Assembly (NCBI GenBank): GCA_014896535.1
Contig: JADBKE010000019.1
Span: 1 to 64,000, forward strand
Reading direction: 5' to 3'
DNA from: Candidatus Fermentithermobacillaceae bacterium
GTDB taxonomy: Bacteria > Bacillota > Sulfobacillia > Fermentithermobacillales > DUSS01
DNA length: 64,000 bases
The notes under the pieces: generated by a model
Database searches by the model: none
What the model saw: only the letters and a program-made list of their open reading frames with translations
Told to the model about the DNA's origin: nothing
Shown here: piece after piece, positions 3,699 to 58,950 of the stretch
How the letters are laid out: the number at the start of each line of letters is the position of its first letter
Numbering within the stretch: the stretch's first letter is position 1
Program-made: the position numbers and the translations under genes

Positions 3699-3773
3699 GG
3701 GCGAATAGCTCAGTGGGAGAGCACCTGCCTTACACGCAGGGGGCCACAGGTTCGAACCCTGTTTCGCCCACCA
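3699..3773 (+). tRNA. tRNA-Val (anticodon UAC)
   Basis: Full cloverleaf: acceptor GGGCGAA pairs with TTCGCCC, anticodon stem CCTGC/GCAGG, loop CTTACAC with anticodon TAC, T-loop TTCGAAC, and an encoded CCA. First gene of a six-tRNA array. The anticodon reads GUA and probably other GUN codons. Confidence 0.95.
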
Positions 3774-3785
3774 TCGAGTTCACGC

Positions 3786-3863
3786 GGAGGCGTGGTGTAG
3801 CCGGTCAAACATACGTGCCTGTCACGCACGAGATCGCGGGTTCAAATCCCGTCGCCTCCGCCA
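3786..3863 (+). tRNA. tRNA-Asp (anticodon GUC)
   Basis: Acceptor GGAGGCG pairs with CGCCTCC; anticodon loop CTGTCAC with GTC; T-loop TTCAAAT; discriminator G as expected for tRNA-Asp; CCA encoded. It follows the first tRNA-Val after 12 bases. Confidence 0.95.
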
Positions 3864-3869
3864 TAGTGT

Positions 3870-3945
<76 letters not shown>

Positions 3946-3952
3946 TTATCGA

Positions 3953-4027
3953 GCGGAAGTAGCTCAGTGGTAGAGCATCGCCTTGCCAAGGCGAGGGCCG
4001 CGGGTTCAAATCCCGTCTTCCGCTCCA
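3953..4027 (+). tRNA. tRNA-Gly (anticodon GCC)
   Basis: Acceptor GCGGAAG pairs with CTTCCGC; anticodon loop TTGCCAA with GCC; T-loop TTCAAAT; discriminator T(U) typical of tRNA-Gly; CCA encoded. Confidence 0.95.
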
Positions 4028-4041
4028 GTTTTTGATCACCG

Positions 4042-4115
4042 GGCGACATAGCCAAGTGGCAAGGCAGGGGTCTGCAAAACCCTTATCCCCGGTTCGAATC
4101 CGGGTGTCGCCTCCA
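4042..4115 (+). tRNA. tRNA-Cys (anticodon GCA)
   Basis: Acceptor GGCGACA pairs with TGTCGCC; anticodon loop CTGCAAA with GCA; T-loop TTCGAAT; discriminator T(U), an identity element of tRNA-Cys; CCA encoded. Confidence 0.95.
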
Positions 4116-4126
4116 AAAAGGATATA

Positions 4127-4203
4127 GGGCGGCTAGCTCAGTTGGTTAGAGCGCCACGTTGACATCGTGGAGGTCAGAGGTTCGAATCCTCTGTCGCCCA
4201 CCA
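4127..4203 (+). tRNA. tRNA-Val (anticodon GAC)
   Basis: Acceptor GGGCGGC pairs with GTCGCCC (one G-U); anticodon stem CCACG/CGTGG with loop TTGACAT, anticodon GAC; T-loop TTCGAAT; CCA encoded. Second valine isoacceptor of the array, reading GUC/GUU, and complementary to the UAC species at its head. Confidence 0.94.
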
Positions 4204-38716: not shown

Positions 38717-39862
38717 GTGGAGGAGTCAAGATCCAGGCTCTATCAGGGGAATGAGGCGTGTGTCGAGGGCGCGATAGCCGCTGGCATGAGGTTTTTCGCG
38801 GGGTACCCCATCACGCCGTCTACCGAGATCGCCGAACTGTGCTCGGTGCGTCTTCCCCAGGTAGGTGGCACCTTCATACAGATGGAAGACGAGATCGCAA
38901 GCATGGCCGCGGTATGCGGGGCTTCCCTGGCCGGTCTCAAAGCGATGACGGCCACGTCGGGACCGGGATTCTCTTTAAAACAGGAGAACATCGGTTTCGC
39001 TGCGGAAGCGGAAATCCCCTGTGTGATCGTGAACGTTCAGAGGGTAGGTCCCTCCACGGGAATGCCTACCTCGCCGGCTCAAGGCGATCTGATGCAAGCC
39101 CGATGGGGCAGGCACGGAGACCAAGAAATCGTGGTTTTGAGCCCGGCGTACGTGGACGAGGTCTATTCTCTCACCATAGAAGCTTTCAACATTGCCGAGG
39201 AGCTGAGGACGCCGGTCATCCTCCTCATGGATGAAGTCGTCGGTCATCTCAGGGAAAAGGTGACTTTGCCGAAGCCGGGCGACCTGGTTATCAAGGATAG
39301 GAAGAAGCCGGTACCCGGTTCGCGGTATCTACCTTACGCTCCCGGCGAAGGCGAAGACGGGGACGTTCCGCCGCTGGCAGCGTTCGGAGATGGTTTCAGA
39401 TTTCACGTGACGGGACTCACCCACGGGCCGGATGGTTTCCCCACAAACAGCCCGAGCGTCGGTGAACCTCAGATCAAGCGAATAAACTCGAAAATATCAT
39501 CGCGAAGGGAAAAACTGTGCAAAGCTGAAGAGCTCTTCACCGAAGATGCAGATATCCTCGTGGTGTCCTTCGGTTCTTCGGCCAGATCCGCCAAGAAGGC
39601 CGTGAAAGACCTGCGAGCTGTGGGGGTGAAAGTCGGGCTTCTGCGCCTCATCACCCTGTGGCCCTTCCCCGAACACGTCATTCAAAGGATCGCGGCGGGA
39701 AAACTCAAGGCGGTCATTGTTCCCGAGATGAATCTCGGTCAACTCGCACGGGAAGTGAGAAGATGCCTCGATGGTAGAGCCCCCGTGATCGGTGTGAACC
39801 GGGTGGCTGGAAAGCTCATAGAGCCCGCCGATGTCATCCGCGCAGTTCAGGAGGTGAAGTGA
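38717..39862 (+). CDS. korA: 2-oxoacid:ferredoxin oxidoreductase alpha subunit (KorA type)
   Basis: About 381 residues. Pyrimidine-binding domain with GNEACVEGAIAAGMRFFAGY, PITPSTEIAEL, IQMEDEIASMAAVCGASLAG and TSGPGFSLKQENIG, then a C-terminal domain II (ILVVSFGSSARSAKKAVKDL). Closest by motif to 2-oxoglutarate:ferredoxin oxidoreductase alpha subunits, a view supported by the glutamate dehydrogenase gene downstream. Oxygen-sensitive cytoplasmic enzyme that makes acyl-CoA and reduced ferredoxin. GTG at 38717 with GGAG eight bases upstream. Confidence 0.9.
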   Translation: MEESRSRLYQGNEACVEGAIAAGMRFFAGYPITPSTEIAELCSVRLPQVGGTFIQMEDEIASMAAVCGASLAGLKAMTATSGPGFSLKQENIGFAAEAEIPCVIVNVQRVGPSTGMPTSPAQGDLMQARWGRHGDQEIVVLSPAYVDEVYSLTIEAFNIAEELRTPVILLMDEVVGHLREKVTLPKPGDLVIKDRKKPVPGSRYLPYAPGEGEDGDVPPLAAFGDGFRFHVTGLTHGPDGFPTNSPSVGEPQIKRINSKISSRREKLCKAEELFTEDADILVVSFGSSARSAKKAVKDLRAVGVKVGLLRLITLWPFPEHVIQRIAAGKLKAVIVPEMNLGQLAREVRRCLDGRAPVIGVNRVAGKLIEPADVIRAVQEVK

Positions 39863-39863
39863 C

Positions 39864-40691
39864 ATGGGTTCGGATCTGACCAAGTACCTCAGGGTGGAAA
39901 AGCTTCCTCACATCTGGTGCGCGGGGTGCGGGCACGGCATCGTCACCCAGGCGATAGTGAGAGCCATCGACGAACTGGGGCTTGACCCGGCTAAAGTAAC
40001 GATCGTCTCGGGCATCGGTTGCTCGTCGCGAGCCCCGGGTTACATGAACTTCGATACTCTGCACACGACCCATGGACGAGCCATAGCCTTCGCGACCGGG
40101 GTCAAACTGGCCCGCCCCGAACTCAAGGTCATCGTGATCACCGGGGACGGGGATGCAGCTGCCATCGGAGGCAATCACCTGATCCACGCCGCCAGAAGAA
40201 ACATAGACCTCACCGTCGTTTGCTACAACAACTCTATTTACGGAATGACTTCTGGCCAGTACTCTCCGGTCACCCCGCTGGGAAGTTTTGCTTCAACTGC
40301 GCCTTACGGGATGGTTGAGCGTCCCTTCGATCTCTGCGAGCTCGTGATGGGCGCCGGGGGCACCTTCGTAGCCCGTAGCACTACTTACCACGCGCGTCAT
40401 CTCACCAACGTCATAAAGCAAGCGATTCAACATAAAGGGTTTTCCTTCGTGGACGCGTTGTCGCAGTGTCCCACCTACTTTGGCCGGAGAAACAACATGA
40501 AAGACGCCCTCGCGATGCTCAACTGGTACAAGGAAAACGCCGTGTCGCGGGATGATTGGGCGAAAATGCCTCCGGCCGAGAGGGGCTCGAAGTTCCCCAT
40601 AGGGGTGTTCAGAGACGAAGAAGCTCCCGAGTACTGCGAAACTTACCGGAAAGTTATCGAAAAAGCGATGGAGGAGGTGGGCGCGAAGTGA
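39864..40691 (+). CDS. korB: 2-oxoacid:ferredoxin oxidoreductase beta subunit (KorB type)
   Basis: 275 residues. Thiamine-diphosphate domain: IWCAGCGHGIVTQAI with the cluster cysteines, SGIGCSSRAPGYMNFDTLH, and the GDGDAAAIGGNHLIHAAR-type ThDP motif with YNNSIYGMTSGQYSP. Starts directly after korA. With KorA it forms the catalytic core converting, most likely, 2-oxoglutarate plus CoA to succinyl-CoA. Substrate inferred from family and neighbours. Confidence 0.92.
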   Translation: MGSDLTKYLRVEKLPHIWCAGCGHGIVTQAIVRAIDELGLDPAKVTIVSGIGCSSRAPGYMNFDTLHTTHGRAIAFATGVKLARPELKVIVITGDGDAAAIGGNHLIHAARRNIDLTVVCYNNSIYGMTSGQYSPVTPLGSFASTAPYGMVERPFDLCELVMGAGGTFVARSTTYHARHLTNVIKQAIQHKGFSFVDALSQCPTYFGRRNNMKDALAMLNWYKENAVSRDDWAKMPPAERGSKFPIGVFRDEEAPEYCETYRKVIEKAMEEVGAK

Positions 40692-41260
40692 GGAAGGAAT
40701 TCAGGCTGGCCGGTGCGGGAGGGCAGGGTCTCATCAGCGCGTCCATAATCCTCGCGGAGGCCATTGCTTCCCGGACCGACCTGTACGTCGCTCAAACTCA
40801 GTCCTACGGTCCTGAATCGCGAGGCGGATCTTCCCGGGGTGACGTAATAGTATCCGATTCTCAGGTGGACTATCCCGAGGTCACGAACCCCGAGTACCTT
40901 CTGGTGATGACCCAGGACGCCTGCTCGACGTATGCCAAAGACCTCGCTCCCGGAGGTGTGCTGATCGCCGATTCCACCTACGTGAAGGAAATTCCCTCCG
41001 TGAACGGAACGGTCAAGTCTTACCCCATCAGCGAACGAGCTAGGGAGATGGGCAGGGAAATAGTGGCCAACATGATCGGTTTGGGTATCCTCGCTGGTCT
41101 TACCGGCGTGGTATCTCTTGAGGTTCTCGAAGAGGCCGTGATGGAAAGGCTGCCCAAGAGCACCTGGGATCTAAACAAGAAAGCTCTCCGTCACGGTTTC
41201 GAGGTGGGAATGCAAATGGCCGGTGGAGGGGAGGAGGTGGGCGAAGGGACGCGAGCCTGA
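40688..41260 (+). CDS. korC: 2-oxoacid:ferredoxin oxidoreductase gamma subunit (KorC type)
   Basis: About 190 residues. CoA-binding gamma domain with RLAGAGGQGLISASIILAEA and QTQSYGPESRGGSSRGDVIV. The GTG at 40688 overlaps the korB stop and follows GGAGGAGG, implying translational coupling. Last of the four oxidoreductase genes. Confidence 0.92.
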   Translation: MRKEFRLAGAGGQGLISASIILAEAIASRTDLYVAQTQSYGPESRGGSSRGDVIVSDSQVDYPEVTNPEYLLVMTQDACSTYAKDLAPGGVLIADSTYVKEIPSVNGTVKSYPISERAREMGREIVANMIGLGILAGLTGVVSLEVLEEAVMERLPKSTWDLNKKALRHGFEVGMQMAGGGEEVGEGTRA

Positions 41261-49847: not shown

Positions 49848-51386
49848 GTGAGAGGCAGGTGCGTCGGGTTGCTTCTCTCGGAGATCGCTTCGGGGATAAG
49901 CGGAGTTGAGGTGTTGAAGGACGCGCAGGTGACCGGGGTGTCGTACGACTCGCGGAGAGTGAAGCCCGGAGACCTCTTCGTGGCGATAAAGGGTTTTCGC
50001 TTCGATGGTCACGATTTCTTGGAAGATGCCCTCCGGAAAGGTGCCACGGCCGTCCTGGTGGAGAAAGGAAGGGAGCTCCCGGTTGTCGCGGCGGGCGTGG
50101 CCCTGGCTGAGGATACGAGGTTAGCCCTGGCCGGCGTATCTGCGGCCTTTTACGGACATCCATCGAGAAATCTGACCGTCATAGGTGTAACCGGGACCAA
50201 GGGGAAAACCACCACAACTCACTTAATCCGGAACGTGCTGCGCCAGGCCGGGATCGACACGGGTCTTGTTGGAACGGTCCACAACCTGGTGGGGGACGAA
50301 GTGCTGCCGGTAGTTCACACTACCCCGGAGGCTCCCGAGCTTCAGTCTCTCCTGGCGCGGATGGTTTCGGCCGGCTGTTCTGCGGTAGTCATGGAAGTTT
50401 CCTCTCACGCCTTAGTCCTCCACAGGGTGGCCCAGACCGCGTTCGACGTGGCTGTCCTGACCAACATCGGCAGGGACCACCTGGACTTTCATCCGTCGTT
50501 TGAAGATTATCTAGAAGCCAAGAAAAAGCTTTTTCGCATGTTGGGGGAGTCCCACCCGGGTCATCCTCCCGAGAGAAAATTCTCGGTTGTGAACCTGGAT
50601 GACCCCGAGTCGAGCGGTTTCATCGAGAGCTCCCCCGTTCGCTGCGTTACTTTTGGAATCAAGAAAGAAGCGACGGTAAGGGGTTGCGATATCTCGCTGC
50701 AACCAGCGGCGACCGAGTTTTCCCTGGTCGTAGGCGCTCGCAGTCTGCGTGTTCGTCTTTCTATGCCCGGGAGATTCAACGTGTACAATGCTCTGGCGGC
50801 TGCTTCCGTGGCCCACGGAATGGGTATCGACTTGGAGACCGTAGCTTGTGCCCTGGAGAACTCCACAAGCGTCCGGGGTCGGGCTGAAGTGGTGGACGAG
50901 GGCCAGCCGTTCACCGTGCTCGTGGACTACGCGCACACTCCTGACAGCCTCGAAAACGTTCTCGAAATGATAAGGGAAACCTCAAACGGAGAAGTCATCG
51001 TCATCTTCGGATGCGGCGGGGATCGCGACAGAGGCAAACGTCCTTTGATGGGCAAGGTCGCCGCCACCTTGGCGGACCACGTCATACTTACCAGCGATAA
51101 CCCCAGGTCCGAAGAGCCCGAAGCCATTATCGAGGAAATCGAGGGCGGTGTGCTTGAAGCCGTGAGATGCTCAGCGGGCCGCGCTCGTCTTAAAGATTAC
51201 CGCAAGATCGTCAGCAGGTTTGATGCAATCAAAGAGGGAATACGCATGGCCCGCCCCGGCGACGTCGTGCTCATTGCAGGGAAAGGTCATGAGACTTATC
51301 AGGTATTCAAAGACAGAACCGTCGCTTTCGACGACGTGGCGGTATCCCGGCAGATTTTGCGAGAGTCGATGGAGAGATCGAGATGA
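49848..51386 (+). CDS. murE: UDP-MurNAc-tripeptide synthetase MurE (meso-DAP type)
   Basis: About 512 residues. ATP loop VTGTKGKTTTTHLI, EVSSHALVLHRV, and DNPRSEEPE, which marks enzymes adding meso-diaminopimelate. Its substrate UDP-MurNAc-L-Ala-D-Glu requires MurC and MurD, whose genes are broken or missing in this cluster. GTG start with a modest site (GACGGGGAC). Stop overlaps murF start by four bases. Confidence 0.95.
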   Translation: MRGRCVGLLLSEIASGISGVEVLKDAQVTGVSYDSRRVKPGDLFVAIKGFRFDGHDFLEDALRKGATAVLVEKGRELPVVAAGVALAEDTRLALAGVSAAFYGHPSRNLTVIGVTGTKGKTTTTHLIRNVLRQAGIDTGLVGTVHNLVGDEVLPVVHTTPEAPELQSLLARMVSAGCSAVVMEVSSHALVLHRVAQTAFDVAVLTNIGRDHLDFHPSFEDYLEAKKKLFRMLGESHPGHPPERKFSVVNLDDPESSGFIESSPVRCVTFGIKKEATVRGCDISLQPAATEFSLVVGARSLRVRLSMPGRFNVYNALAAASVAHGMGIDLETVACALENSTSVRGRAEVVDEGQPFTVLVDYAHTPDSLENVLEMIRETSNGEVIVIFGCGGDRDRGKRPLMGKVAATLADHVILTSDNPRSEEPEAIIEEIEGGVLEAVRCSAGRARLKDYRKIVSRFDAIKEGIRMARPGDVVLIAGKGHETYQVFKDRTVAFDDVAVSRQILRESMERSR

Positions 51387-52798
51387 AAGAGATTTCCGTG
51401 GAAAAAATAGTCCAGGTTACCCGCGGGGTTTTGATCCGGGGAGACCCGTTGCAGCGGGTCACGGGCGTGACGGTGGATTCCAGATGTGTGGCGGAAGGAA
51501 ACCTGTTCTGCGCCATCAAGGGTGAAAAAGCAGACGGCCACGACTACGTGCTGGATGCCTTTTCAAAAGGAGCGGTAGCTTCTCTCGTATCGAAAGAGGT
51601 TGAGGTCCCTTCCGACTTTTCGCCGCAAAAGGCCCTCATTCTGGTACCCGACACGGTGAAGGCGCTGGGAGATCTCGCCCGTTTCTATCTGGACTCGCTC
51701 GATGTTACGGTCATCGGCGTGACGGGAAGCGTGGGGAAGACCAGCACCAAAGACATGATTTACTCGGTCTTGCGGAAGCGGTTCCGCGTGGGGAAGAATC
51801 CGGGAAACCTTAATTCCGACATAGGCCTGTGCCTGGCGGCCTTCCAGCTCGACCCCGGCATCGAAATCGCCGTCCTCGAAATGGCCATGAGGGCGGTGGG
51901 GGAGATAAAGTACCTGGCTTCTATCGCTCGTCCCACTTACGGGGTCCTGACGGACATTTCCCAGTCTCACATCGGCGTGGTTGGAAGCCTCGAGAAGATA
52001 GCGAGAGGAAAAGCCGAGCTCATCGAGGCGCTGCCCGCGGACGGAATTGCCTTCCTCAACGGCGACAACTCCCTGATCCGCGAGGTGACCGCCGGGGTCA
52101 CGTGCAGGAAAGTTTTCTACGGGTTCGGACCGGATTGCCAGTACAGGGCCGAAGGAGTCACCATCCTCGGGGAGGAAGGGGCCGCTTTTACCCTGCGATA
52201 TCCGGGTGGCGAGATTCGGGCGAAGATCCCCGTTCCCGGAAGACACCAGGTGCAAAACGCCCTTTGCGCAGCTGCGGTAGGGTTCGAACTGGGCATGACG
52301 TCCGGCGAGGTGGTGAGCGGTCTTGGGGACGCAAGTCTTTCGGGTATGCGGACGGCGCTGACGCACGCGGGACGGCTCACCATTCTGGATGACTCTTACA
52401 ATTCCAGCCCTGTGTCGTGCAAAGCTGCGCTGGACCTCCTTTGCGAATTGCCGGGGGAGAGGAAGGTTGCGATCCTCGGTGACATGCTGGAACTCGGCGA
52501 ATGGGCACCGGAGGCCCACCGGGAAGTGGGCCGGTACGCTGCCGGCAGGGTTGACGTCCTAGTGACTCAGGGAGATCTGGCCCGGTACATCGCCGACGGC
52601 GCCATTGAAGCCTCGGGCTTGGTCGGGCGGGCAACCGAAGTTACCTGGGTTCCCGACAGGGAGTCGGCTCGGAGGTTTCTCGCGGGATCCCTGAAAGCCG
52701 GTGATGTGGTGCTGGTCAAAGCTTCTCGCGCTATGAAGTTCGAGGAGTACGTGGAGTTCTTGAAGGCCAAGGGTCGGGAGATGGGCGCCGATGAATAG
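51383..52798 (+). CDS. murF: UDP-MurNAc-tripeptide D-Ala-D-Ala ligase MurF
   Basis: 471 residues. ATP loop VTGSVGKTSTKDMI, NLNSDIGLCLAAF and ILDDSYNSSPVSCKAALD. It finishes the UDP-MurNAc-pentapeptide. Overlaps murE at its start and mraY at its end, so the three are translationally coupled. Confidence 0.95.
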   Translation: MKEISVEKIVQVTRGVLIRGDPLQRVTGVTVDSRCVAEGNLFCAIKGEKADGHDYVLDAFSKGAVASLVSKEVEVPSDFSPQKALILVPDTVKALGDLARFYLDSLDVTVIGVTGSVGKTSTKDMIYSVLRKRFRVGKNPGNLNSDIGLCLAAFQLDPGIEIAVLEMAMRAVGEIKYLASIARPTYGVLTDISQSHIGVVGSLEKIARGKAELIEALPADGIAFLNGDNSLIREVTAGVTCRKVFYGFGPDCQYRAEGVTILGEEGAAFTLRYPGGEIRAKIPVPGRHQVQNALCAAAVGFELGMTSGEVVSGLGDASLSGMRTALTHAGRLTILDDSYNSSPVSCKAALDLLCELPGERKVAILGDMLELGEWAPEAHREVGRYAAGRVDVLVTQGDLARYIADGAIEASGLVGRATEVTWVPDRESARRFLAGSLKAGDVVLVKASRAMKFEEYVEFLKAKGREMGADE

Positions 52799-53777
52799 CG
52801 GTCTCGTCTACGGCATCGAAGTTCTCGCCGGCTTTGCGGTATCAGTGGCAATCGGGCATGCGTTCGTGCCCTACATCAAGCGTTTGAAGATCGGTCAGCA
52901 CATCAGGGGGGAAGGTCCTCGAGCTCACTTCAAGAAGGCCGGGACTCCCACGATGGGTGGGGTGATCTTCCTCCTCGGAACTCTGGTTCCCGCGATTGCA
53001 GAGGGGTTTTTCGGGCTCCTCGGGCGCGACGCTTGGCTGGCAATCGGGGTCTTTTTCGCTTTTGGACTCATAGGTTTCATCGATGACTGGAGGAAATTCC
53101 GGCTGGGTCGTTCTCTTGGATTGAGAGCTCGGGAAAAGATGGGCCTTGCGATTCTCGCGGCGGCGGTGTTTCTCTACATCTGGCGGACGGGAGGAGGCTC
53201 TAGCGACGTCATCGTTCCGGTGATAAACCGTGTGGTACACCTGGGCGCTTTGTACCCCGTTTTCGGCGTTCTCGTGATGGTGGGTTCTTCCAACGCTATG
53301 AACCTCACTGACGGACTGGACGGGCTTGCGGCAGGGGTATCTGCTATAGGGCTTGCCGCGCTTTCCCGGGTGGCCCTGGCCAAGGCAGCATTGAACGGGG
53401 CCGGAGGGCTTGAGCACCTGGCACCCACCGCCATCGGGGCGATTCTGGGCTTTCTCGTGTATAACCGTCACCCGGCCAAGATATTCATGGGCGACACGGG
53501 CTCGCTGGCTCTGGGGGCGTTGCTTGCGGCCTTCGGAATCCTCACAAAGACCGAGCTTTTGCTGCTATTTTTCGCCGGCGTCCCGGTGGTGGAGACTCTT
53601 TCCGTAATCGCACAGGTCATTTCGTTCCAGCTCTTCGGCCGGCGCATATTCAAGATGAGCCCGCTGCACCATCACTTTGAGCTTCTGGGATGGCCGGAGG
53701 TAAAAGTGGTAAGGACTTTCTGGCTGGCTCAAGCTCTTCTGGCTGCCGCCGGAATATGGGTGATGACGCTCGTGTGA
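52791..53777 (+). CDS. mraY: Phospho-MurNAc-pentapeptide transferase MraY
   Basis: 328 residues with about ten membrane helices. Catalytic motifs GFIDDWRK, MNLTDGLDGLAAG, FMGDTGSLALGA and PLHHHFELLGWPEVKVV. It makes lipid I at the membrane. murD normally follows; here only 40 bases separate it from the ftsW/spoVE gene. Confidence 0.96.
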   Translation: MNSGLVYGIEVLAGFAVSVAIGHAFVPYIKRLKIGQHIRGEGPRAHFKKAGTPTMGGVIFLLGTLVPAIAEGFFGLLGRDAWLAIGVFFAFGLIGFIDDWRKFRLGRSLGLRAREKMGLAILAAAVFLYIWRTGGGSSDVIVPVINRVVHLGALYPVFGVLVMVGSSNAMNLTDGLDGLAAGVSAIGLAALSRVALAKAALNGAGGLEHLAPTAIGAILGFLVYNRHPAKIFMGDTGSLALGALLAAFGILTKTELLLLFFAGVPVVETLSVIAQVISFQLFGRRIFKMSPLHHHFELLGWPEVKVVRTFWLAQALLAAAGIWVMTLV

Positions 53778-53817
53778 GAAATCAGTAAGACGTCTTCGGG
53801 AGGTTCTTCGGGCTTCC

Positions 53818-54930
53818 GTGCAAAGAAGGACGAACGTCACAAGGGGAAAACCCGATTACATTCTTTTCTTCACCGTTCTGACGTTGCTTGCTTTGGGCAT
53901 AGTGATGGTGTTTTCCGCGAGCTTCGTGAGGGCCGAACGGTTTTACGGCTCGCGCTACTACTTTTTGGTTAGGCAGGTCATATGGGCGGCAATCGGCGTC
54001 ACCATGATGATGTTCTTCATGAACTTCGACTGCTGGCGCTTGCGACCGGTGATTCCGTATCTATACGGTCTTTCGTTGCTCCTTCTCGTGCTGGTGCTCA
54101 TACCGGGCATCGGCAAAATGGCCAATGAAGCCAGACGTTGGATCAAACTCGGGCCGATAAACCTGCAACCCGCCGAGCTTTCAAAGCTGACCACGCTGTT
54201 ATTCATGGCCGACAGCCTCGCCAGGAAAAAAGAAAGGGTGCGAGGGTTCTGGTCCGGCCTCTTCCCTTATCTGGTGCTCCTGGGCCTGACCTTCGCGCTC
54301 ATACTTGCCGAACCCGACCTGGGTACGGCGGTGGCGGTGGCCGCTTCGGCCGGAGTGATGGTGTTCGTAGCCGGCGCGAACATGTGGCACCTCGCTCTGG
54401 TAGGTGCTGGTGCGGTACCGGTACTGATCTGGGCCATTATGTCCTCAGAATACAGGCGCGAGCGATTCTTCGCTTTTCTCGATCCCTGGAAGGATCCCAT
54501 GGGTTCCGGGTTTCAGATCATTCAGGCCCTGTATGCTCTGGGTTCCGGGCACCTCTTCGGTACCGGCGTTGCCTATTCAAGGCAAAAATACTTTTACCTG
54601 CCGGAACCTCATACGGATTTCATATTCGCCATCATCGGGGAAGAACTCGGCTTCATAGGTTCCTTCGTGGTGTTGTTCTCGTTCTTCGTCATAGCATGGA
54701 GGGGTTACAGGACAGCTCTGGCAGCACCTGACAGGTTTTCCTGCATTCTAGCGGCGGGAACGACGTCCCTGGTGGTGGGGCAGGCCATCGTAAACATCGG
54801 TGTTGTGACGGGCTGTCTTCCCATCACCGGGATTCCCCTGCCGTTTTTGAGTTACGGGGGCTCCTCTCTCGTGGTAAGTCTGGTCTGTGTGGGGATTCTT
54901 CTCAACATTTCGCGTTATGCGGGGCGCTGA
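53818..54930 (+). CDS. FtsW/SpoVE-type SEDS glycosyltransferase
   Basis: 370 residues, about ten membrane helices, with the SEDS motifs ARRWIKLGPINLQPAELSKL, EPDLGTAVAVAASAG and GIPLPFLSYGGSSL. It polymerises lipid II with the class B PBP encoded four genes upstream. The cluster position matches spoVE in B. subtilis; the vegetative ftsW role cannot be excluded. GTG start at 53818 after CGGGAGG. Confidence 0.93.
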   Translation: MQRRTNVTRGKPDYILFFTVLTLLALGIVMVFSASFVRAERFYGSRYYFLVRQVIWAAIGVTMMMFFMNFDCWRLRPVIPYLYGLSLLLLVLVLIPGIGKMANEARRWIKLGPINLQPAELSKLTTLLFMADSLARKKERVRGFWSGLFPYLVLLGLTFALILAEPDLGTAVAVAASAGVMVFVAGANMWHLALVGAGAVPVLIWAIMSSEYRRERFFAFLDPWKDPMGSGFQIIQALYALGSGHLFGTGVAYSRQKYFYLPEPHTDFIFAIIGEELGFIGSFVVLFSFFVIAWRGYRTALAAPDRFSCILAAGTTSLVVGQAIVNIGVVTGCLPITGIPLPFLSYGGSSLVVSLVCVGILLNISRYAGR

Positions 54931-54945
54931 AAGGAGACTGGAGGA

Positions 54946-56067
54946 ATGAGGCTGGTCGTCTCGGGAGGCGGAACCGGGGGTCACATCTATCCGGGTCTCG
55001 CCGTTATCGAGGTTTTGAAGGAGATGGTTCCCGGATCCCGCATTCTCTACGTGGGCACGGCAGAGGGGATGGAGGCAGATATCGTACCGAAGCAAGGGAT
55101 CGAGTTTGCACGGGTGAGGTCCGGAGGCATCAGAGGGAAATCGCTCGTCAAGGCCATGGCCGGCGCCGTTCGCGCCGCGTTGGGTGTGAAAGATGCCTTC
55201 GGGATTTTGAGGGATTTCCGTCCCGACGTGGTGCTGGGGACCGGTGGGTATGTTTCGGGCCCCGTGATCCTCGCAGCGTGGACCCAGCGCATTCCCTGTG
55301 CGATTCAGGAGCAAAACTCGGTTCCTGGCAAGACCAACCTCATACTCGCCGGGTTCGTCCAGCGGATCTTTTGCGCATGGGAGAAAACCAGGACTTCTTT
55401 CCGCGGCAGCTCCAAGGTAATGGTCACGGGAAACCCCGTACGCAAAGCGGTGATCGAGGCCAAAAGAGACGATGGTTATCGCCGGTTCGGACTGGACCCG
55501 GGCAAGACCACCGTACTGTTGCTGGGCGGTTCGCGGGGGGCGATGACCCTGGCCGAGGCAGGTCTGAAAATAGCAGAAAGGGCGGACGACCTCGGCTTTC
55601 AAATGTTGTTTATCACGGGTAATCCGTATTTCGACATGGTCGCGGAAAAGTTGGGATGCCGGCCTCAGGAGGGAATAAAGAACGCAAAAGTCGGCAACGT
55701 TATCGTACAAGCCTACGTGTACGACATCGAATACGCTCTTGCCTGCGCGGACCTGGCAGTGTGCAGAGCCGGCGGGATGACGCTGGCGGAGGTTACCGCC
55801 CGGGGAATTCCCGCGGTAGTGGTTCCCTCGCCTAACGTTGCCGGAAACCACCAGGAGTACAACGCGAGAGCTCTGGAAGAGCTCGGGGCTTGTGAAGTGG
55901 TGACCGAGGCACGAGGGGCGGGGGCCGTCGCCGAAGCTTGCCTCGACTTGCTCGTGGATCGCGCTAAGATGGCGAGGATGGCGGAGGCGTCGAAGGCGGC
56001 GGGGAGGCCCCACGCAGCCGAGACGATAGTGAGGGAACTCATCAAACTCGCCAGGACCAGGCGCTGA
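54946..56067 (+). CDS. murG: Lipid II synthase MurG
   Basis: 373 residues. GT-B glycosyltransferase with GGGTGGHIYPGLAV, GTGGYVSGPVILAAW and the UDP-GlcNAc site CRAGGMTLAEVTARG. It adds GlcNAc to lipid I on the inner face of the membrane. ATG after GGAGG, 15 bases after the SEDS gene. The reading frame is clean to its end, unlike the murC remnant that follows. Confidence 0.96.
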   Translation: MRLVVSGGGTGGHIYPGLAVIEVLKEMVPGSRILYVGTAEGMEADIVPKQGIEFARVRSGGIRGKSLVKAMAGAVRAALGVKDAFGILRDFRPDVVLGTGGYVSGPVILAAWTQRIPCAIQEQNSVPGKTNLILAGFVQRIFCAWEKTRTSFRGSSKVMVTGNPVRKAVIEAKRDDGYRRFGLDPGKTTVLLLGGSRGAMTLAEAGLKIAERADDLGFQMLFITGNPYFDMVAEKLGCRPQEGIKNAKVGNVIVQAYVYDIEYALACADLAVCRAGGMTLAEVTARGIPAVVVPSPNVAGNHQEYNARALEELGACEVVTEARGAGAVAEACLDLLVDRAKMARMAEASKAAGRPHAAETIVRELIKLARTRR

Positions 56068-56106: not shown

Positions 56107-57530
56107 ATGAAGAAAGTACACTTCGTGGCCATTGGTGGACAGGGGATGTCCGGCATCGCCCGAATCCTCTTGCGGAGAGGGTACCAGGTCTCCGGATCCG
56201 ATCTCAAGGAATCGTCGGTCACCGAGCTTTTGAGAAAAGAGGGTGCCCAGACATTCATATAGGGCAATCGGAGGAAAACGTGGCTTCTGATGTGCGGTCC
56301 AGTAAGCCTCTCCGCAGATCCCCTGGCGGGAAAAACCTGTAGCGATGACGGCCTGCATCGCCGGGATTCCTCTGATTCCAAGCAGGGTGGACATGCTCGC
56401 AGGACCGGTAATCTGAAGGCGTGGCGGCTGCCGCTGCGGCCGGCAGCACACGGGAAATGACCAATTCGACCACTGTGGCTGTATGCCTCGCGTGGGTTTT
56501 GATGGTGAAGACCTGGAAAGAATCCGACTTTTCTCGTTCGTCGAGGGGCGCCGCAAAGAGCGGAAATTCGTGGCGGGAGGGAAGAGGACGCGATGCCGTC
56601 ATTGAGACGGGACGAGCTTGACGTGATCCTTCTCAAAAACCATCCCCGATCGCCGCCACGCCATCGTGACGAACATCGATGATGACCATTTGGACTACTG
56701 TGGATCTGTAGAAAACCTGGAGCAGTTTTCGCGCTTCGCGAGGGGGGTAGGCGAGGGAGGGTAAAGGTTGTGTACAACGCCGACGATCCGAGCGCTTCCG
56801 AAAAGCTTTGTGCGGGCGGAACAACTGCGTCGGCTACTCGCTGGCAAGCAACGGGGATCTTTTCGAGCTACGGGTCTCGTCCCGAACGGCCAAAGTTCTT
56901 CCTCGAACACACTTGGGCGCATCACACTGCAGGTGCAGTTGCTCGAACTGATCCGCAAGCCGGGCCGGCATGACGTCCATCTCGATGCTGGCTGGCCGCG
57001 TCCGGTGGCGGCGACGGTTTCCCACCCTCGGGCGAGGGTGAGTCGCTTCGAGCTTTGAAATCTTTTCCAGGCGTGAAGAGGCGCTCCTGCAGAGGACGGT
57101 CTGTTCCAGGGACTGCGAGCGGCTGCTTGCTGGACGATTTTCGGGCAAACCATCCTTCGAACGAAACCGGGCCAGCCTCAGCGCCGTGCGTGGAAGCCGG
57201 GCGCCGCAAGTCAAAAAGATCCGGTTGTCTTTCAGCCGCAACGGGCATGAGCCAATTGGTGATTATTACTGGGCGACATTTGGGACTTTGGCTGCCAGGC
57301 GACGCCCGGTTATCACTCAGCAATTCACGCTTCTGGTCCGGAGAGTGCCTTGTAAGAGGGGGCGTGACGTGCCGGGCTTTTGTACTTCAGAGCGGTCGAG
57401 TCTTTGGTGTGCCGAGGCAGTCCGGCATTGTCCTGATACAATAGGCTGCAGCTGTGGCTGCAAAAGAGCTGGTCCGGGGCGATACTCACTCACCAGGCGC
57501 GGGGACACTCTTCAAGAAATCTCAATTGAG
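56107..57530 (+). pseudogene. murC: murC wreck (UDP-MurNAc-L-alanine ligase), many frameshifts and stops
   Basis: A normal start (GAGGTG, ATG at 56107) gives [20 protein letters not shown] and stops at TAG 56260. MurC motifs then go on in order but in changing frames: [13 protein letters not shown] from 56256, IAGIPLIPSRVDMLAG from 56354, the P-loop remnant AHGK followed by TGA at 56458, TNIDDDHLDY near 56670, VVYNADDPSA at 56767-56796, SFPGVKRR at 57061, LLDDFRANHPS at 57127, VVFQPQRA at 57224, and the C-terminal GD-x5-GAGTLFK near 57478. At least nine frame changes plus substitutions, so no active enzyme can come from this sequence. True decay or local sequence error are both possible. murB is not found here. 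Confidence 0.9.
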
Positions 57531-57735
57531 GACTCCATGACCCCTTGTAACGCAAAGGCACCACTGAACTGACGGGGTGGGGCAGCCCCTGGAAAACACT
57601 GCGGTGGCTTTGGCTCCTAGGCCTGTGGACCACCAACCCTCCTTTCGCCAATGACCTGATTGCATTTTTTCGTAGAGTGGTAGCGCGGATGGCCCGGTTC
57701 GTGATCGAAAGGGTGGTGCACCCGTCAGAGGAAGC
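57531..57735 (+). other. Region between murC wreck and murA, with out-of-frame murA 5' end
   Basis: An ATG at 57689 begins MARFVIE, the expected first residues of MurA. The frame is then lost: GAAAGGGTGGTGCACCC does not connect to the GGAPVRGSVSVSGAKN frame that runs into murA. The 150 bases before it hold no gene and are too short for murB. Confidence 0.65.
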
Positions 57736-58950
57736 GTGTCGGTGAGCGGGGCGAAAAATGCGGTCTTGCCCATGATGGCCGCATCTGTGATGGCGTCCAG
57801 GCCTTGTCTCATACAGAATGCGCCGCACCTGGTAGATGTGGAGGTAATGGCCGCTATTTTGACTTCCATCGGCGTCCACGTGCGCTGGACCGGGGTCACC
57901 GGGAGCGACCTTTATATCGACCCGTCGGGGCTAAGGAGCCACGTCGTGGATGAGGCGTTGATGCGAAAGGTACGGTCCTCGATATTCTTGATGGGACCTC
58001 TTCTCGCAAAATTAGGAAAGGTGGAGGTGTCGCATCCGGGAGGTTGCGACATCGGGCCAAGGCCCATCGATTTGCATCTCAAGGGACTGCGGGCCATGGG
58101 CGCGCGGTTCGAGGAATCTCACGGAAGGATCCTGGGTGTGGCGGAGTCCTGGAAAGGGGTGGACATACACCTGGACATCCCCAGCGTGGGAGCTACCGAG
58201 AATATCATGATGGGTGCCTGCCTGGCCGAGGGTGTGACCATTATCAGAAACGCCGCCAAAGAGCCTGAGATCGTAGACCTTCAGGGGTTCTTAAACTCCA
58301 TGGGTGCTTCGGTGCGCGGCGCGGGCACCGACGTCATAAGGGTGGAGGGTTTGAAGTCGCTGAAGGGCGCGGTTTACTCGGTGATGCCCGACCGCATAGA
58401 AGCCGGTACTTTCATGGCGATGGCCGCCATAACCGGCGGCGAAATCTGGATAAGGAACGCCATCGCCGAACACGTTCAGGCCGTTATCGCGAAGCTTCGG
58501 GAAACCGGGGCTGATGTGATCGAGAAGCCCGATGGCTTGTTCGTAAGGGGACCCAGAAGGCCATTGCCCACCGATGTTAAGACGCTCCCGTACCCCGGGT
58601 TTCCCACAGACATGCAGCCTCAAATGATGGCCCTGCTTACGTTGGCGGATGGCACCTCGGTAATTACAGAGACGGTTTTTGACTCCAGGTTCAAGCAGGC
58701 AGAGGAGCTCGGGAGGATGGGAGCGCGAATCCGAGTGGACGGACGAACGGCGATAATCAAGGGAGTGCCCGCGCTATCCGGAGCGCAGGTGGAAGCGACG
58801 GACCTTCGCAGCGGCGCCTCTCTGGTTCTGGCTGCGCTCGCCGCCGAGGGAGTCACGGTCGTCACGGGTATTCAGAATCTGGACCGAGGGTATGAGAAAT
58901 TCGAGGACAAGATAAGGGCTCTCGGTGGCAACATCGCGAGGGTTGATTAA
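57736..58950 (+). CDS. murA: UDP-GlcNAc 1-carboxyvinyltransferase MurA, 5' end frameshifted
   Basis: 404 residues in the open frame, about 15 short of normal. Catalytic Lys/Asn in VSGAKNAVLP, catalytic Cys in HPGGCDIGPRP, and PDRIEAGTFMAMAAITGG are intact. The natural N-terminal strand (MARFVIE from 57689) is in another frame. The GTG at 57736 has only a weak GAGG four bases upstream. Either a shortened enzyme is made or the lesion is a sequence error. MurA makes the first committed precursor of peptidoglycan. The end overlaps divIB. Confidence 0.88.
   Translation: MSVSGAKNAVLPMMAASVMASRPCLIQNAPHLVDVEVMAAILTSIGVHVRWTGVTGSDLYIDPSGLRSHVVDEALMRKVRSSIFLMGPLLAKLGKVEVSHPGGCDIGPRPIDLHLKGLRAMGARFEESHGRILGVAESWKGVDIHLDIPSVGATENIMMGACLAEGVTIIRNAAKEPEIVDLQGFLNSMGASVRGAGTDVIRVEGLKSLKGAVYSVMPDRIEAGTFMAMAAITGGEIWIRNAIAEHVQAVIAKLRETGADVIEKPDGLFVRGPRRPLPTDVKTLPYPGFPTDMQPQMMALLTLADGTSVITETVFDSRFKQAEELGRMGARIRVDGRTAIIKGVPALSGAQVEATDLRSGASLVLAALAAEGVTVVTGIQNLDRGYEKFEDKIRALGGNIARVD

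Follow-up and report, generated by a model that had tools for sequence, protein, structure and literature searches.

Gene content of the murG-murA region

The analysed window comprises the first 64,000 nt of contig 19 (171,311 bases) in the assembly of a Candidatus Fermentithermobacillaceae genome (1.95 Mb, 19 contigs, 92.57% complete). It harbours a cell-wall gene cluster in the order murE, murF, mraY, ftsW, murG, a broken murC, murA, an FtsQ-like ORF (49.8 bits, under the cut-off of its model) and ftsZ. The genes murD, murE, murF, mraY, ftsW, murG and ftsZ are all open and score above their cut-offs. The interval between mraY and ftsW (window positions 52791-54930) contains no murD, and a MurD over cut-off is encoded on contig 12 at 39821-40837. 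The window also presents a run of six tRNA genes at 3699-4203 (Val, Asp, Phe, Gly, Cys and Val). Among the 40 genomes searched, the closest relatives by murA were two members of the same genus: G001, which is the Candidatus Fermentithermobacillaceae MAG AS04akNAM_61 (the sequences are identical), and G002, taken as the Candidatus Fermentithermobacillaceae MAG Tomsk_2_57_33. The region from murG to murA contains the following features.

54946..56067, + strand: murG, open and full length (NCBIfam TIGR01133, 272.6 bits, cut-off 250.25), serving as left flank and control
56107..56262, + strand: start of murC (~50 codons), ended by an in-frame TAG (56260-56262) that already belongs to the patch (translation; TIGR01082 positions 1-50)
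56257..57710, no strand assigned: indel-ridden patch extending over the remainder of murC, the intergenic spacer and the opening murA codons (137 indel events against G001)
57689..57745, + strand: broken murA start; after the correct ATG and MARFVIE the reading leaves the frame and runs into a stop (translation; G001 orthologue)
57712..58950, + strand: remaining murA, open and conserved (TIGR01072, 509.7 bits; identity to G001 and G002)

Both murC and murA are intact in the two same-genus relatives (2/2), with murC directly upstream of murA and scoring 455.1 bits in G001 and 442.5 bits in G002, over a curated cut-off of 335.1 bits; the G001 orthologue, located between murG and murA, continues to 462 aa. 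At the locus studied here, no full-length TIGR01082 match over that cut-off was obtained between murG and murA, and the profile returned only fragments of 56.7 bits (56113-56262) and 24.2 bits (56654-56815). Among the 41 genomes searched, this one included, murC exceeded the curated cut-off in 39, the exceptions being the studied genome and G030, in which murC is present as two pieces on two contigs.

A profile search of the studied assembly identified no other murC over cut-off, and a second copy may lie outside this 92.57% complete assembly. The strongest of the other matches to the profile was a 114-bit hit on contig 12, which is MurD (366.6 bits as MurD); two further matches at 50163-51290 and 51665-52435 fall within MurE and MurF, and two more lie on contig 6 (30 and 21.7 bits). 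Plasmid-borne relatives of the patch were sought among 72,556 plasmid records, with no match.

The murA reading frame breaks after its first codons

The ATG at 57689 opens the peptide MARFVIE and its frame terminates after 18 residues, with positions 57689-57745 of the forward strand reading MARFVIERVVHPSEEACR before the stop. The segment GGAPVRGSVSVSGAKN of murA lies in a different frame from this ATG, and the conserved continuation GGAPVRGSVSVSGAKNAVLPMM... is readable from 57712, again in a frame other than that of MARFVIE. The G001 orthologue includes MARFVIEGGIPIKGSVSVSGAKN and its NCBIfam murA match starts at the MARFVIE methionine (residue 31 of the G001 ORF), which identifies MARFVIE as the correct murA start. 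A previous sequence-only reading had proposed both that ATG 57689 is the true MurA start and that the frame breaks immediately after it, and the orthologue and the translations agree with it on both points.

The ORF finder places murA between GTG 57736 and position 58950 (404 aa), and this ORF exceeds the TIGR01072 curated cut-off (392.7 bits) over profile positions 17-416 of 416, with 96% identity to G001 and 93% to G002. A complete in-frame N-terminus was thus not found. Downstream of 57710, the alignment spanning murG start to murA end reveals no indel in murA with respect to G001.

The EPSP synthase family has three members in this genome, all of them MurA according to NCBIfam, and the same number of family matches was detected in G001 and in G002. 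The two members other than the murA studied here are full length. The second MurA that the sequence-only reading suggested looking for is therefore present twice over, and the loss of the N-terminus in this murA need not by itself be lethal. AroA is absent among the three family members of this genome (92.57% complete), and the usual shikimate step may be missing from this organism.

A single patch of dense indels spans two genes

The alignment with G001 from murG start to murA end contains 145 gap events, 137 of which fall inside 56257-57710. Of the remaining eight, six form three offsetting pairs within murG and two are 1-base deletions in the spacer that separates murG from murC. The patch is hence about 1.45 kb in size; it sets in at about codon 51 of murC, covers the spacer and reaches about codon 8 of murA. 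The break at the murA start constitutes its right-hand edge, with the last ~22 bases of the patch included in 57689-57750.

Insertions account for 91 of the 137 events and add 148 bases, whereas deletions account for 46 and remove 66 bases; 123 of the 137 break the frame, their lengths not being multiples of three. Their spacing (mean 10.7, sd 10.9 bases) is that expected of random placement. The excess of insertions fades rightward, with 22 insertions and 22 deletions from 57300 on, and both this excess and the exact insertion:deletion ratio vary with the alignment used, a gap-permissive alignment against G001 yielding 119 insertion and 71 deletion events. In gap-permissive alignments with G001, insertion events number 9.3 and deletion events 5.6 per 100 aligned bases of the patch, versus 0.6-0.8 of each in the flanks; with G002 the two rates are 9.7 and 6.1, versus 1.3-1.9 outside. 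Mismatches present a modest rise, reaching 13.2% in the patch against G001 (flanks 11.4% and 9.8%) and 15.9% against G002 (flanks 14.1% and 13.5%). The patch is collinear with G001 along its entire length.

In order to establish how common such patches are, indels of 1-2 bases were counted in 1000-base scanning windows. Against G001 (200 scanning windows, median 0), those touching the patch reached 51 and all others remained at or below 7; against G002 (228, median 1), the corresponding values were 41 and 12. On contig 12, compared with G001, the maximum was 10 (333 scanning windows, median 1). The short-indel count thus sets the patch apart from every scanning window examined. The aligned sequence, which amounted to 50,201 and 56,758 bases within the window and to 79,539 bases on contig 12, contained no second such patch. 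When indel density was computed in 200-base bins over the aligned parts of contig 19, the patch occupied eight adjacent bins and the next longest run three. On contig 12, two adjacent bin pairs were present among the top eight bins listed. Of eight other density peaks inspected, some are intergenic, but one or more (such as that near 48000 on contig 12) overlap an ORF that is open in both genomes, so that gene context by itself does not clear these peaks.

A survey of contigs 19 and 12 in full, and of 160,000 of the 168,579 bases of contig 18, identified 34 ORF holes of at least 500 bases, one of them within the patch and eight of them in stretches compared with G001 and G002. A scan for frame changes under a codon model missed even the murC patch and is uninformative.

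Other departures from the relatives were observed along the contigs. Roughly 18 kb of contig 19 (~82800-100900) did not align to the G001 and G002 stretches compared, and the sequences bordering this block are separated by ~0.3 kb in G002 (contig 68) and by ~1.8 kb in G001 (contig 36), so that it looks like an insertion in the studied genome. On contig 12, a stretch of some 1 kb (96864-97917) that lacks a long ORF aligned partially to G001 at 83%, and its G001 counterpart has no ORF of at least 110 aa covering most of the region.

Codon-position bias and simulated divergence

Within the damaged murC, mismatches at codon positions 1, 2 and 3 amounted to 31/391, 40/383 and 81/382, and to 10/125, 11/120 and 24/120 in columns without a gap within four (chi-square p = 0.007). 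In neighbouring genes, the mismatch rate is 1-5% at the first two codon positions and 24-27% at the third. The retention of a third-position bias indicates that the patch resembles a selected gene overlaid with noise. The first two positions are nonetheless raised in the patch (7.9% and 10.4%, versus 1-5% in the neighbouring genes), which is explained by noise but would also be explained by young decay.

Nine models of divergence, with rates of our own choosing, were simulated in 30 runs each, starting from the matching G001 segment given flank-like divergence. The closest was a noise model with 10% insertions, 5% deletions and 8% substitutions, which produced, per 100, 13.5 mismatches (observed, 13.4), 8.9 insertion events (observed, 9.1) and 4.9 deletion events (observed, 5.4), and lengthened the segment by 73 bases net (observed, 82). 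This model runs low on indel bases, with 11.1 inserted and 5.6 deleted per 100 versus 13.4 and 7.1 observed. Noise richer in deletions (3% insertions, 6% deletions, 5% substitutions) did not fit, yielding a net loss of 43. The three decay models, which gave 17.6, 21.5 and 23.2 mismatches per 100 and shortened the sequence by 6 to 31 bases net, depart from the observed values in both respects and argue against decay.

Origin of the patch

A sequence-quality artefact, to which we assign a probability of about 95%, is the reading favoured by the patch and its edges, by the mix of indels within it, by the codon-position bias that it retains and by the intact orthologues in both relatives. The traits by which uncorrected long-read sequence would be recognised, namely dense, randomly placed, frame-blind and indel-heavy differences with sharp edges, were all found in the patch. 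About 1.45 kb of uncorrected, probably single-pass long-read sequence would cover the murC-murA junction, for instance as a gap fill joining well-polished pieces, and the organism itself would most likely carry intact murC and murA. Both the cause and the involvement of long reads are inferred here, and the platform is uncertain because the total noise of the best model exceeds 20%, which is high for a single read on recent platforms. An error-prone assembly might also be expected to show several such patches, and the lack of a second one in the compared parts weighs against an error. The broken murA start is almost certainly not a real feature. The sequence-only reading had favoured one error-rich segment crossing from murC through noncoding DNA into murA over gene decay; the single sharp patch, indifferent to gene boundaries, the indel-heavy mix, the third-position bias and the intact orthologues all bear it out. 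Its alternative, a MurA lacking the first strand, finds support in nothing outside the damaged patch.

Real decay, with murC a pseudogene and the damage extending into the murA start, would agree with an unreadable murC in a genome where no other was recognised, with the raised first and second codon positions and with the two MurA paralogues, which would make the loss of this murA start bearable. We nevertheless consider it very unlikely. In bacterial mutation substitutions outnumber indels, the reverse of the best noise model, in which indels are about twice as frequent as substitutions. Decay old enough to have accumulated 137 indels should have removed the third-position bias, which persists, and neither the sharp ends of the patch nor its disregard for gene boundaries is expected of decay. 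The mismatch-heavy divergence, loss of third-position bias and deletion excess that would mark a bacterial pseudogene formed by mutation were not found in the patch. Furthermore, loss of the sole MurC should halt peptidoglycan synthesis, yet the other steps seen here are intact, and a cell with those steps but without MurC is not likely. It is extremely improbable that a localised burst of indels over murC and the murA start truly deprived a free-living Bacillota cell of its sole MurC while the remaining peptidoglycan pathway was kept. The preponderance of insertions over deletions also runs contrary to the deletional bias described for bacterial genomes (PMC2916853).

An assembly chimera or a mixed-strain consensus, instead of raw long-read noise, would likewise yield a bounded damaged patch and could fit an indel mix that varies along it. 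A mixture of two intact homologues should, however, yield differences that mostly keep the frame and not 123 frame-breaking indels, and the collinearity with G001 throughout also speaks against this scenario, which we regard as scarcely credible. Equally hard to credit is an intact murA truly starting at GTG 57736 and encoding an N-terminally shorter MurA: the ORF is open and scores well as murA, but it aligns to the profile from position 17 onward, the G001 orthologue and the two MurA paralogues match from position 1, and the correct start sits upstream, severed by indels within the patch. Programmed frameshifting or recoding at the murA start can be ruled out, since the break is one among 137 indel events spanning two genes.

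With a sequence-quality artefact as the preferred explanation, neither a lack of MurC nor a shortened MurA should be concluded from this genome, and automated annotation might report both. The combination of an indel-heavy mix, a retained codon-position bias and edges blind to gene boundaries provides a usable, read-free signature for such patches.

Comparison with known systems

Compared with the MurC family (TIGR01082), the murC studied here matches at profile positions 1-50, aligns a second piece at positions 169-225 and sits, as in G001, between murG and murA; unlike the family, its frame ends at codon 52. The murA resembles the MurA family (TIGR01072) in being open over profile positions 17-416 and 93-96% identical to its same-genus orthologues, and differs from it in that its first codons are out of frame, inside the damaged patch. 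That assembly errors can create false pseudogenes in bacteria has been documented (Cooley and Wright 2024, PMC11017572). Such cases resemble the present one in presenting frameshifts and internal stops, of sequence-quality origin, in a gene that is intact in near relatives, and differ from it in that the errors here are crowded into one 1.45-kb patch.
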